A DNA stretch of 20,770 bases from a virus, in IMG/VR virus record IMGVR_UViG_3300006921_000217, positions 1 to 20,770 of that record; one strand, given 5' to 3'. Below are positions 13,293 to 19,621 of the stretch, piece by piece. The number at the start of each line of letters is the position of its first letter. Within the stretch, counting starts at the first letter, position 1. Position numbers and translations under genes: made by a program. Under the pieces are notes generated by a model. The model had not been told where the DNA came from. It saw nothing but the letters and a program-made list of their open reading frames with translations, and searched no databases.

Positions 13293-14189
13293 TTATTTAT
13301 TACTCATAGTCATTTCTCTTAAAGTATAAACTTGTTGCACCGATTTATCGTGATCGGGATGTTGTTTATTCCAATAAGGTCCTTGTCTATCGTTGACAAT
13401 GGTAGCTATTTCAGACTCTAAATCTTTAACTGTACTAACATTTTCACTTTCAGTTGATACAATTTTATCCTCAGACATCATATTTGCAATCTTTGCAAAT
13501 CCTTTTATGATCTCAGGATGATCTCCAAGCCTTGTTCCATTTTGAAGTGTCATATCTAAAACATCTGCATTGATATTAGCTTGAGCTAATGCTCCTGCTT
13601 GTTTTATTTTAGCTTCAAAATCTCTACCCCATTCTTGTCTTAACTGTTGAGTAGCTTGAGCTTGTGCAGTTTCAGTATCAACTTGAGCTTGTTTAGCTGT
13701 GCCTTCCATACTGTTTTTATAAAATTCCAATATGCCTTGAGCTTGTTTATTATTCAAACCCAATTTGTGCGATTGCTCGGCAAAGGATTTAATTGCACCC
13801 TCATCCATAGGAACAACATCAGATTTAGCTTCTAGTTTATATTTTTCCGCAGATTCTGGTCTGCCTAATTTTGTATAAACTTCATTCCATTGATCTTCTG
13901 TTGAGTTATTATTTGGGATAACCATTTTATCCTGACCAATCATTTTCGTTGCGTTAATATAACTTTTAGCTAACGCATCTATCTCAGTAAACTTTTTAAT
14001 GTTTTGGTCATCTCTATACTCTGGAGAGATTGCATCTTTCCAAGATTTAGCTACAGGAGCTGGTTGCTCAGTAGTAGCTGATATAGTTGTCTCTGTTGTT
14101 GTTTCTTGTTTTGTTTCTGGTTGTGCTGTAGAGGGAGTTGTCGTTTCTACAGGCACAGCAGAAGGCTGTGTTGTCTGTTCATTTGACAT
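13293..14189 (-). CDS. Capsid assembly (scaffolding) protein
   Basis: The 298-aa product fits phage scaffolds. It has a disordered Thr/Pro/Glu/Gln-rich N-terminus (residues 1-45), then a segment typical of such proteins (SWKDAISPEYRDDQNIKKFT, ALAKSYINATKMIGQDKMVI, 48-92, followed by LGRPESAEKY), a helical middle with many Ala, Gln and Lys, and a charged C-terminus. It lies directly before the major capsid gene and after the portal, the same order as T7 genes 8-9-10. Scaffolds of this type line the inside of the procapsid and leave on maturation. The ATG at 14189 is 2 bases after the previous stop; AAGGAAAAT upstream is a good ribosome site. Confidence 0.88.
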   Translation of the reverse strand: MSNEQTTQPSAVPVETTTPSTAQPETKQETTTETTISATTEQPAPVAKSWKDAISPEYRDDQNIKKFTEIDALAKSYINATKMIGQDKMVIPNNNSTEDQWNEVYTKLGRPESAEKYKLEAKSDVVPMDEGAIKSFAEQSHKLGLNNKQAQGILEFYKNSMEGTAKQAQVDTETAQAQATQQLRQEWGRDFEAKIKQAGALAQANINADVLDMTLQNGTRLGDHPEIIKGFAKIANMMSEDKIVSTESENVSTVKDLESEIATIVNDRQGPYWNKQHPDHDKSVQQVYTLREMTMSNK

Positions 14190-16706: not shown

Positions 16707-17978
16707 TTATAAAATCCTATATTCATTCTCTGCTACACGTTGCGGAGCAGATTGTCTAGTATTAATTTCTTGTAGTCCCACACTTAGATACCTCATGGCA
16801 TCACAACCATGTGAACTCCAATCATGTACAGGCTTTGATCTAAACATTCTATTCTTATCAATATACTTCCTGTGATAATGTCTTAACGCATCTATTAGCT
16901 TTTTGCAATGGTCTGTATCAATCCAGCAACGAGGTAAGGTCATTGTGGTTGCGTGGATGCCATCTTCTAATGGAATTTTGGGAACAACCTTAAATCTTAC
17001 TCCTAGCTGGTAAGCTACCTCTCTTCTTGTTTTACCATTGCTAAATTCTGTAACTTCTATATCATGCGGTGCGAAATGATCTTTATAGATATAATCTTTA
17101 TCTTTTATGATCTGCACATAGTGGGGTAATCCCTGACCTCTCTCTTCATGATAATCAATAATATTAATGCTTCTGCCTAGCTGCTGGAAAAATATAATAG
17201 AACTATGATCCGCCACCCCTAAGTCCCAACTGGTAGAAACTGGCAAGGAAGGATCGTAAGGTACTCTTGTTAATTGTTTTCCATCTTCCATCTTTGCCAA
17301 GACATCTGCATAGATAGCTCCTTCAATATTAGCAATCCAATCACATTCAAACTCTTGTAGGTACTTCTTCTCACCCATAACTTCTTTTGCTTTGACTAGC
17401 TCTTCCTCATCTACTATTTTTGTTTCACTTGCTTTTGCTTTATAGTTAAACCAATCTTCTGCTCCTTGTGCGTGTTGATAGAGTTCATAGAAGTTATTGT
17501 TCATGCCTTGAGGTGTACCAATAAAGACACAGTAACCTTTACGATCTGATAATGCAGGTCTAATAATTTCTGGGAAAAGTTTATCGGTTACATTTGCGTA
17601 TTCATCAATGACACATCCATCCAGGTATATACCCCTTAAGCCATCTGAATTTTCCGATCCTAGTAAAGTAATTCTAGCACCATTAGGTAAATCTACTCTT
17701 AGTTCTGTTTCGTTAAATTTGATATAAGGGATCTTATCTGTAAACTGTTTCATATAATCCCAAGCAATACTCTTTGCCTGTTTAAAAGTGGGTGCAATAT
17801 AAGCGAACCTGGGGTTCTTTTTTTTGGAAAGTAAAGCAGACCTGATTAAATGATTAATCATACATACTGTTTTGCCAAACCTACGATGGCACACCAATAC
17901 TGACCATCTATGACTATCTATTTGTTTGTGTAGATAACTCTGGTGCTTTCTTGGGGTATAGGGTATTTTAATATCCAT
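16707..17978 (-). CDS. terL: Large terminase subunit (DNA packaging ATPase/nuclease)
   Basis: The 423-aa protein pumps DNA into the procapsid and cuts it. The ATPase part shows Walker A (CHRRFGKT, residues 30-37), Walker B with catalytic Glu (VIDEY, 123-127) and a coupling motif (GTPQG, 154-158). The nuclease part has the first acidic strand (TSWDLGVADHSSIIFF, Asp252) and a C-terminal SSHGCDAMRY (Asp393) that provides metal ligands. The translated frame is complete but shorter than T7 gp19 (about 586 aa), closer to the compact terminases of many other phages. It begins 2 bases after the 62-aa gene stop. The placement ahead of the portal differs from T7, where the terminase gene lies after the tail fibre gene. 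Confidence 0.95.
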   Translation of the reverse strand: MDIKIPYTPRKHQSYLHKQIDSHRWSVLVCHRRFGKTVCMINHLIRSALLSKKKNPRFAYIAPTFKQAKSIAWDYMKQFTDKIPYIKFNETELRVDLPNGARITLLGSENSDGLRGIYLDGCVIDEYANVTDKLFPEIIRPALSDRKGYCVFIGTPQGMNNNFYELYQHAQGAEDWFNYKAKASETKIVDEEELVKAKEVMGEKKYLQEFECDWIANIEGAIYADVLAKMEDGKQLTRVPYDPSLPVSTSWDLGVADHSSIIFFQQLGRSINIIDYHEERGQGLPHYVQIIKDKDYIYKDHFAPHDIEVTEFSNGKTRREVAYQLGVRFKVVPKIPLEDGIHATTMTLPRCWIDTDHCKKLIDALRHYHRKYIDKNRMFRSKPVHDWSSHGCDAMRYLSVGLQEINTRQSAPQRVAENEYRIL

Positions 17979-17980
17979 AT

Positions 17981-18169
17981 TTAGTGGATCATCTTACTTT
18001 GGCTACCATCATCTAGTAAGACCTCAAATCCTAATCTTGACATAATGTAGCTAGTAAATAGCTCAGATGATGCCTTATTTGGAAAGCCTATAAATCTAAT
18101 AACTACATGATTTGTTTTTTTATCAATGTAGCAAATAGAATCTAGTTCTTCAGATCCAAAGTAATCCAT
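17981..18169 (-). CDS. 62-aa protein before terminase; possible small-terminase analogue
   Basis: A 62-aa protein (opens MDYFGSEELDSICYIDKKTN; includes VVIRFIGFPNKASSELFTSY). It has no recognised helix-turn-helix. The ATG has no Shine-Dalgarno motif but overlaps the stop of the 34-aa membrane ORF (TAATG), so it is probably translated by coupling. In T7 the order is holin (17.5), small terminase (18), large terminase (19); here a membrane peptide, this gene and terL occur in the same order. At 62 aa it is short for a small terminase (T7 gp18 is 89 aa), so that identity is a hypothesis only. Confidence 0.65.
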   Translation of the reverse strand: MDYFGSEELDSICYIDKKTNHVVIRFIGFPNKASSELFTSYIMSRLGFEVLLDDGSQSKMIH

Positions 18170-18288: not shown

Positions 18289-18406
18289 AAAAAAAAAGGA
18301 TTAGCAAGATACAGATAGGCGACTGTGTCTAAGGGTGTCCTGAAGTCCCATGTATATATACGTATAGTTTGGCGACCAAATTTTGGGGTATAGGGGGTAT
18401 CTTGCT
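18289..18406 (-). ncRNA. Candidate structured leader/small RNA closed by a 10-bp inverted repeat
   Basis: In minus-strand RNA, AGCAAGATAC (18406-18397) pairs perfectly with GTATCTTGCT (18312-18303), closing an 84-base interior. Nine T's follow after AATCC (18297-18289). Inside, TTTGG can pair either with CCAAA downstream (TTTGG-TCG-CCAAA, 18380-18368) or with CCAA just upstream (18386-18376), so two exclusive hairpins are possible. The element ends about 16 bases before the 34-aa ORF. It could be an attenuator, a riboregulator or an independent small RNA. No known riboswitch or tRNA-like family is recognised. Confidence 0.45.
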
Positions 18407-18482
18407 TTCAAAAATAGAGGGTTTAGCTTTCAATATTACTAACGATAACTTATGATTATCAATACTATTCCGATAACGATCA

Positions 18483-18518
18483 ATTATAGGAAGATAATAT
18501 AGGTCAGTAATGCTGACC
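18483..18518 (-). promoter_or_regulatory. Possible late promoter with palindromic operator
   Basis: A perfect -10 hexamer TATAAT (minus strand, 18488-18483) lies 13 bases downstream of the 17-bp palindrome GGTCAG-CATTA-CTGACC (18518-18502), which covers the position of the -35 element. The -35 bases themselves match sigma-70 consensus poorly. This is the layout of an activator-dependent or repressed promoter and it faces the late operon. A start near 18476 would give a leader of about 200 bases. Confidence 0.42.
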
Positions 18519-18584
18519 CGTTTGTTATAACGTGAGAAAAGCAGCCGTTGCTGTTTATATTAGAATAGGAACTTTTCAACTACT

Positions 18585-18608
18585 TCCAGGAATATCTCCA
18601 GGAATATT
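18585..18608. repeat. 12-bp tandem repeat, two copies
   Basis: TCCAGGAATATC at 18585-18596 is followed at once by TCCAGGAATATT at 18597-18608. The pair lies between the 88-aa gene terminator and the palindrome. It could be a protein-binding site; nothing more can be said. Confidence 0.6.
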
Positions 18609-18614
18609 ACACAT

Positions 18615-18652
18615 AAAAAAAAACCCTCAATAAAATTAATTATCAAGGGTTT
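18615..18652 (-). terminator. Strong intrinsic terminator for the 88-aa gene
   Basis: On the minus strand AAACCCT (18652-18646) pairs with AGGGTTT (18627-18621) around an AT-rich loop, and the hairpin runs into nine T's (18623-18615, the first three within the stem). It begins 21 bases after the 88-aa gene stop. It insulates the small leftward cassette from the late operon. Confidence 0.85.
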
Positions 18653-18673: not shown

Positions 18674-18940
18674 CTATTGTGAATATTCAAGACCAAAGCT
18701 TTTTAAATTCCAAGCATCAGTTTTTTTAATCCATTCATAAGTTACATAATCATAATCTTTAAGCATTTTATCAAAATCCATATCTTTATATTTATTTAAA
18801 GACATTACATAATCTTGACAATCACTACTTAAATCACTCCATAACTCTTTAAATACATCCGACACATCAACCAATCTTTTTTCAGTTGTAACTTTGCCAT
18901 TCCATATATTTAAATCGTGGCATTTAACATAAGTATTCAT
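18674..18940 (-). CDS. 88-aa acidic protein of unknown function
   Basis: An 88-aa acidic protein rich in Asp, Lys, Tyr and Trp (opens MNTYVKCHDLNIWNGKVTTE; includes SDVFKELWSDLSSDCQDYVM). I do not recognise a family. It has a good ribosome site (GAAAGGG, 8 bases before the ATG), the same type as the rightward early genes, and its own strong terminator. It forms a two-gene leftward cassette with the 57-aa gene, whose stop overlaps a likely promoter for this gene. This suggests an early or constitutive gene rather than a structural one. Confidence 0.75.
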   Translation of the reverse strand: MNTYVKCHDLNIWNGKVTTEKRLVDVSDVFKELWSDLSSDCQDYVMSLNKYKDMDFDKMLKDYDYVTYEWIKKTDAWNLKSFGLEYSQ

Positions 18941-18971: not shown

Positions 18972-19000
18972 ATACATAACATATATATTATATATGTCAA
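18972..19000 (-). promoter_or_regulatory. Putative sigma-70-type promoter for the 88-aa gene
   Basis: A perfect -35 TTGACA (minus strand 19000-18995) is followed after 17 bases by ATGTAT, a weak -10 within a very AT-rich tract (TATGTATATATT). The -35 overlaps the stop codon of the 57-aa gene. The -10 is poorly defined, so the exact start is uncertain. Confidence 0.5.
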
Positions 19001-19170
19001 TCACTCTTTTTAACTTTAATAAACTTTAATAATTTATGTTTCTTCTTATTGATATATGAGATCTTAACAGTTTCATTGGGTTTAAACTTACTTGATAATT
19101 TTTTTAATAATTTTTTAAAGCTATTAGCTGCAATGGTTTCATTGTCATTAATTAAATAAGAGTATCTCAT
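18997..19170 (-). CDS. 57-aa basic protein, apparently leaderless
   Basis: Reading from ATG at 19170 to TGA at 18997 gives 57 residues, very Lys-rich (begins MRYSYLINDNETIAANSFKK; continues LSSKFKPNETVKISYINKKK). No helix-turn-helix or other family is recognised. There is no Shine-Dalgarno motif. A promoter-like TTGCAA-18-TATATT ends only 9 bases before the ATG, so transcription would start within about 1-4 bases of it, giving a leaderless message as for lambda cI from PRM. It diverges from the early operon and is flanked by paired 20-bp repeats, so a regulatory role is plausible but unproven. Confidence 0.6.
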   Translation of the reverse strand: MRYSYLINDNETIAANSFKKLLKKLSSKFKPNETVKISYINKKKHKLLKFIKVKKSD

Positions 19171-19219
19171 ACTGTTGCAAATATATCACATTTCCAGAAA
19201 CTGTTGCAATAATATCACA
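19171..19219. promoter_or_regulatory. Two 20-bp tandem operator-like repeats
   Basis: ACTGTTGCAAATATATCACA (19171-19190) and ACTGTTGCAATAATATCACA (19200-19219) share 18 of 20 bases and are 29 bp apart, nearly three helical turns. The first abuts the ATG of the 57-aa gene. They lie between two divergent genes, so a regulator bound to both could control each direction. Confidence 0.7.
19180..19209 (-). promoter_or_regulatory. Promoter for the leaderless 57-aa gene
   Basis: On the minus strand the -35 is TTGCAA (19209-19204), the spacer is 18 bases and the -10 is TATATT (19185-19180, one base from consensus). The -35 comes from one 20-bp repeat and the -10 from the other, so a protein bound at either would cover the promoter. 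Confidence 0.5.
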
Positions 19220-19253: not shown

Positions 19254-19282
19254 TTGACTTCTATATTTAATTTCATTAATCA
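19254..19282 (+). promoter_or_regulatory. Putative early rightward promoter
   Basis: TTGACT (19254-19259, one base from the -35 consensus), a 17-base spacer and TAATCA (19277-19282). The -10 is weak. A start near 19290 would give a leader of about 44 bases to the first early gene. It lies 35 bases from the nearer 20-bp repeat. Confidence 0.5.
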
Positions 19283-19333: not shown

Positions 19334-19621
19334 ATGAAAGCATATAAAACAACAATTCACACTGATGGCGATACTGTCAATGTGGTTCACCATTCAACTA
19401 AAATTATTGAGCATAATTTAGTTAATAAAACTATTAAACTTAATAATGATGGTTGGTTTTCTAAAACTACCAAAGATAGAATGAATGCTTACTTTAATGA
19501 AAGCAATTTATCAGCTTTTGGAATATTTCAGAAAAAGGGTAATTGGTTCGTTTTAACACCTAATAACGATCATAAGAATGCAATACCTTATGAAAATAAT
19601 ATGATCTTAGAGGTTGCTTAA
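19334..19621 (+). CDS. 95-aa early protein, small phage family of unknown function
   Basis: First gene of the rightward early operon, with ribosome site GAAAGGGG 7 bases before the ATG. The segment IKLNNDGWFSKTTKDRMNAY (about 35-54), then AFGIFQKKGNWFVLT (61-75), resembles a pattern I know from many small uncharacterised phage proteins (Gly-aromatic, Thr-Thr-Lys-x-Arg-Met/Leu-Asn, then Gln-Lys and Trp-Phe-Val). No biochemical role is known to me. It is soluble and has no signal or membrane segment. Confidence 0.75.
   Translation: MKAYKTTIHTDGDTVNVVHHSTKIIEHNLVNKTIKLNNDGWFSKTTKDRMNAYFNESNLSAFGIFQKKGNWFVLTPNNDHKNAIPYENNMILEVA

Follow-up and report, generated by a model that had tools for sequence, protein, structure and literature searches.

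Organization of the divergent control region

The window that we analyzed, a linear IMG/VR fragment of 20,770 bp taken over its whole length, belongs to an HTVC010P-type (Ubiqueviridae) pelagiphage, as judged from its terminase, portal and gene order. The large terminase subunit was 90.8% identical to that of HTVC010P, the portal was assigned to the family phrog_332, and the blocks of genes followed the same order as in HTVC010P. Similarity at the DNA level was seen to pelagiphages only, and the host is probably a SAR11 bacterium. What the window has in common with the HTVC010P-type isolates (HTVC010P, Skadi, HTVC034P) is the genome plan, with terminases that are 84-91% identical in most isolates, whereas the genes for proteins of 57 and 88 aa, which lie between the repeats described below and the late block, are extra genes in the window. 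A contig from another record carried a 57-aa gene and an upstream region identical to those of the window. On the opposite side, the first early gene belongs to a family (PF23790/phrog_554) that is known from cyanophages. The region from 18300 to 18620 is non-coding and precedes the 62-aa/terminase block; its DNA is similar to positions 261-646 of HTVC010P, it contains a G-rich run (ggggtatagggggta) that is unusual for this AT-rich genome, and it is possibly the cohesive-end or packaging region. The features of the locus are collected in Table 1.

Table 1. Features at the early/late divergence of the window and in the adjoining leftward block.
Feature	Coordinates	Strand	Remarks
Terminase large subunit	16707..17978	-	91% identity to the HTVC010P protein
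62-aa MDYF...MIH gene, start of late block	17981..18169	-	
88-aa gene, function unassigned, downstream of 57-aa gene, with its own Shine-Dalgarno (SD) sequence	18674..18940	-	
57-aa gene, first leftward gene, no SD, probably leaderless	18997..19170	-	homologues, purifying selection
Proximal box, TGTGATATATTTGCAACAGT on the - strand	19171..19190, core 19174-19189	-	immediately followed by the 57-aa start codon
Distal box, TGTGATATTATTGCAACAGT on the - strand	19200..19219, core 19203-19218	-	
Candidate promoter, TTGCAA (19209-19204), 18 nt, TATATT (19185-19180)	19180..19209	-	predicted
TTGACT, candidate -35 of the divergent early promoter	19254..19259	+	predicted from sequence
First early gene, opposite side, 95 aa, Kyano_Gp96 family PF23790, SD AGAAAGGGG	19334..19621	+	

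A first, sequence-only reading of this DNA had described two 20-bp repeats 29 bp apart upstream of the 57-aa gene. Both are present, reading on the + strand ACTGTTGCAAATATATCACA (19171-19190) and ACTGTTGCAATAATATCACA (19200-19219); they are identical at 18 of 20 positions with a start spacing of 29, and the window holds no other copies. On the - strand the order is TGTGATATTATTGCAACAGT, ttctggaaa, TGTGATATATTTGCAACAGT and the ATG at 19170. Each repeat is one imperfect palindrome and not merely a pair of -35/-10 hexamers: the box is an imperfect inverted repeat, GTTGYA-N4-TRCAAC, which takes the form GTGATA-N4-TGCAAC in the window, the left half often being GTGATA.

The same reading had joined the two repeats into a promoter, TTGCAA-18-TATATT. 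The letters and the spacing are indeed found on the - strand, where TATATT is followed by TGCAACAGT and the ATG, but this arrangement varies across the family: its -35 part is not maintained in relatives, and the tandem hexamers were rejected as the conserved element because their spacing is lost in members whose boxes are 17-18 bp apart. A sigma-54 reading of the boxes was also dropped, since sigma-54 needs a -24 element and SAR11 bacteria are not known to have this factor. The PhaR/AniA motif was compared with the box and was found to be different.

The box is an element of host porin promoters

A search of genome contigs with GTGTGATATWWTTGCAAC gave 31 matches, including nine in Pelagibacteraceae and four in Puniceispirillum (SAR116). 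The sites in these two groups adjoined an outer-membrane porin gene, with the porins of SAR116 carrying the box as well as those of SAR11, and in SAR11 a lipoprotein gene and leuS were usually transcribed divergently from the porin. Most of the exact matches outside SAR11 and SAR116 were not at porins. The exact 16-mer occurred in 10 of the 297 Pelagibacterales genomes sampled, once in each; these sites were at porin or outer-membrane protein promoters, one of them lying at a contig edge beside the porin-flanking lipoprotein gene. Many of the bacterial genomes scanned were single-cell or metagenome assemblies.

When SAR11 porins were instead taken by protein homology, the inverted repeat was found upstream of 22 of 23, compared to 1 of 26 upstream regions of other genes at the same loci and 0.3% of shuffled porin regions (half-sites GTTGYA/GTGATA, no more than 1 of 12 positions mismatched, within 220 bp upstream). 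The distance from the box to the porin ATG was mostly 95-118 nt, and its orientation to the porin varied, as expected for a dyad. The box is thus a host element that is carried upstream of SAR11 porin genes and is specific to them.

We scanned the window with a matrix built solely from these bacterial (SAR11 porin) promoters. The top match was the proximal box (24.2 bits) and the second was the distal box (22.9 bits), while the next best match in the window reached 13.6 bits. In 300 first-order shuffles of the window, the porin-matrix score was never above 21.2 bits, indicating that the repeat pair did not arise by chance. Since the matrix includes degenerate sites picked from porin upstream regions, the weight here is carried by the shuffles and the control with other genes, and not by the bit scores alone.

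In two other alphaproteobacterial genomes (L345 and L344, around position 1501 in both), the box adjoins a response-regulator receiver gene (VLIVEDQPQILRLIADCLK), and in L345 a porin lies on the other side of the box. The receiver gene is a candidate lead to the regulator.

The boxes are found in phages that lack the 57-aa gene

In HTVC010P-type contigs that do not have the 57-aa gene, the box is at the same divergence, between the early genes and the 62-aa/terminase block, and the second copy is often degenerate (TGTTGTATATTTACAG). In these relatives the boxes are followed, after about 350-380 nt, by the 62-aa MDYF...MIH gene. The same intergenic region is boxed in HTVC010P, Skadi-5 and about 20 contigs: whole-genome scans gave the best matches at 34689-34764 (three copies) in HTVC010P and at 13475-13513 in Skadi-5. 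Boxes were also present in HTVC034P and HTVC106P. The sequence-only reading was supported in taking the repeats for a regulatory element of a divergent control region, but because the same boxes are found in phages that lack the 57-aa gene, they do not belong to that gene.

Unlike the window, some HTVC010P-type isolates are without the box. None was found in the whole genomes of HTVC035P and HTVC100P, or in the partial stretches scanned of Lederberg, Greip, HTVC204P and HTVC028P; its absence from several close relatives indicates that the box is not essential to the phage family. The cultured phages tested were a handful, several of them only near the terminase gene. Five of the relatives that have no 57-aa gene carry a second palindrome (TTAGAATNNTTCTAA / TTTATAATNNTTCTAA) downstream of the boxes, and this may hold a -10 element or another operator.

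Scanning IMG/VR with TGTGATATNNTTGCAACA returned at least 119 stretches, compared to 7 for a reversed control pattern, from viral collections that overlap. Many unrelated groups were represented among the 119 stretches listed, with a GC content of 30-47% in those measured. A terminase gene was present in 62 of the 119 loci listed, mostly at about 0.2-0.7 kb from the box; among these listed loci the terminases belonged to several PHROG families, and the orientation of the box relative to the terminase varied. The Roseobacter phage CRP-6 carries an array of at least six boxes. This array (GTGACATTTTTGCAAC and variants, at 198-418) is found toward one end of the genome record, about 2.6 kb upstream of the gene that comes before the terminase. 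The SAR116 phage HMO-2011, of which 50 of the 55 kb were scanned, showed no good box. A box in an unrelated viral contig (L063, around 1200-1255) has a parS-like palindrome (TTTCACGTGAAA) at a distance of about 10 bp.

The start codon of the 57-aa gene abuts the box

The 57-aa open reading frame is a real gene, since about 30 homologues of 57-62 aa were found in IMG/VR and the pairwise dN/dS within the 57-61-aa family was about 0.06-0.3. At the homologous loci that we inspected, in HTVC010P-type genomes, the 62-aa/terminase block follows closely downstream of the gene. Each box-bearing homologue has one to three boxes, and in all 18 that were scored the 16-bp box core ended 0-4 nt before the ATG and no AGG/GGA-type SD was present, in keeping with the earlier observation that the gene in the window has no ribosome site before its ATG. 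By contrast, the box-less homologues have an SD, either GGAGGT or AAGG. Together with the short distance between box and ATG, this points to a leaderless transcript as the likely means by which the 57-aa gene is expressed, as the first reading had suggested. The contrast between box-bearing and box-less homologues is the best evidence for such a transcript, although it is not proof; an SD is also missing from some other genes of the window, so that this feature alone does not prove leaderless translation. The sequence of the box varies between members of the family while the palindromic half-sites are kept, as would be expected of a protein-binding site. A search for boxes directly before an ATG elsewhere (94 stretches) gave no further recurrent family with a convincing gene beyond the 57-61-aa family.

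AlphaFold2, run on the family alignment, predicted a beta-beta-alpha-beta-beta domain for the 57-aa protein (pLDDT 85, pTM 0.59). A fold search against the PDB gave nothing below E 0.28 and no convincing match to a DNA-binding protein, consistent with the earlier remark that the protein has no recognized DNA-binding fold. The structure match in BFVD, A0A1B1IR89 (48% identity, TM 0.90), is itself a member of the 57-61-aa family. Pfam and PHROG searches gave chance-level matches only, and no relatives were found by tblastn in cultured phages or bacterial genomes.

Proposed control by a host porin regulator and its alternatives

HTVC010P-type phages do not have an RNA polymerase of their own and rely on the host enzyme (PMC10504331). 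The repeats are copies of the host porin box, and from the sequence comparisons we consider it likely that a host porin regulator times the divergent promoters of the phage. The boxes lie between the rightward early genes and the leftward block (the 57-aa gene, then terminase and virion genes), and a host envelope or porin regulator that bound them would tune transcription from the early and the leftward promoters. Phage transcription could in this way track the envelope or osmotic state of the host, or the phage could draw on an abundant host activator. RNA polymerase would probably start within or just after the proximal box and produce a leaderless mRNA that opens with the 57-aa frame, the start codon of the 57-61-aa gene abutting the proximal box in this phage subgroup. 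The binding of a host protein to the boxes, the identity of that protein, its action in activation or repression, and the transcript start are what we infer here. Since OmpR/ChvI-type proteins control outer-membrane proteins in Alphaproteobacteria, a response regulator of this type would be a reasonable first candidate for the binder. CenR and ChvI/BvrR are similar in that they control cell-envelope genes through short repeated boxes, but the published motifs (CenR TGA-N8-TGA; ChvI TTGC-N3-GCAA or N-GCC-N8-GCC) differ in spacing and half-sites from the box here, TTGC-N6-GCAA (PMC9275681, PMC9731502, PMC9491525).

The nearest known case is that of the cyanophage Pho boxes, through which the host PhoB/PhoR controls phage genes (PMC10976474, citing Zeng and Chisholm 2012). 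The principle is the same, in that a host regulator has its site in the promoter of a marine phage and phage transcription follows host physiology, although binding is predicted in the present case. The box here likewise lies in a phage intergenic promoter region and in the same place in relatives, with some isolates lacking it. It differs from the Pho boxes in its sequence, the inverted repeat GTTGYA-N4-TRCAAC; in the hosts, which are SAR11 and other Alphaproteobacteria; in its target, since it sits at the main early/late divergence where the Pho boxes serve an auxiliary metabolic gene; and in its regulator, for which an OmpR/ChvI-type protein is a candidate here. We found no paper on the SAR11 porin box in phages in a partial literature collection.

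The boxes might instead be bound by a phage-encoded regulator that has evolved to a host-like site, in which case they would form an ordinary phage early/late switch. Their position in the early/late divergent region would suit this, and HTVC010P-type phages encode two putative transcriptional regulators (PMC10504331), with which the annotations of HTVC035P and HTVC100P agree. However, these two phages have the regulator genes and lack the box, and the box is shared by phages with unrelated terminases and a GC content of up to about 47% and by host porin promoters, which makes this explanation unlikely. It is more doubtful still that the boxes are decoys, titrating away the regulator of the host porin so that less porin is made, while phage promoters are hardly controlled directly. 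A drop in porin could, for example, limit superinfection, and phages may carry up to at least six copies (CRP-6) against about one exact site per SAR11 genome; nevertheless, two copies per genome are few, and the exact placement at divergent promoters, 0-4 nt from the ATG, suggests a role in cis.

The sequence-only reading had favored autoregulation, with the 57-aa protein binding the paired repeats as lambda cI does at PRM. The likeness lies in the paired operators, the divergent region and the abutting leaderless or near-leaderless gene; moreover, the gene is adjacent to the boxes in all box-bearing members, and the protein is small and lysine-rich. This proposal was not supported, and we regard it as very improbable, because boxes without the gene are found in many phages and bacteria, including HTVC010P, Skadi-5, HTVC034P, other phages and host porin promoters, while box-less homologues keep the gene and use an SD. 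Unlike in lambda, the protein is not repressor-like, the fold searches gave no known DNA-binding fold, and the operator is common to the host genome and to phages without the gene. Least probable of all is that the boxes belong to a packaging signal as sites for the small terminase subunit: although a terminase gene is nearby in roughly half of the motif loci listed, we rank this reading last on account of the porin link, the same box being a porin-promoter element in bacteria, and the terminase families involved are unrelated, the orientation of the box to the terminase varies, and the frequent position of terminase at the head of a late operon makes its proximity fit a promoter role.

Implications for marine phages

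SAR11 bacteria and HTVC010P-type phages count as some of the ocean's most abundant organisms and viruses, and the matter at stake is how gene expression is timed in a phage that has no RNA polymerase of its own and whose host has few regulators. The present analysis names a concrete 16-bp box that is common to host porin promoters and phage control regions. It opens to direct test the identity of the SAR11 protein that controls the porin, and the dependence of the phage program on that protein, and the box also provides a sequence mark for control regions in the genomes of uncultured marine phages. Beyond control by the host porin regulator in this phage, we tentatively raise a wider possibility, in which we have less than even confidence: a single, undescribed alphaproteobacterial porin regulator may have been tapped independently, as the master input to their early/late divergence, by unrelated lineages of marine phages, namely SAR11 podophages of two or more types and Roseobacter phages. 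If this were true, phage development would be gated by the envelope and porin status of the host, and in one lineage this gating would be coupled to a small leaderless gene that has its start codon as the edge of the operator.
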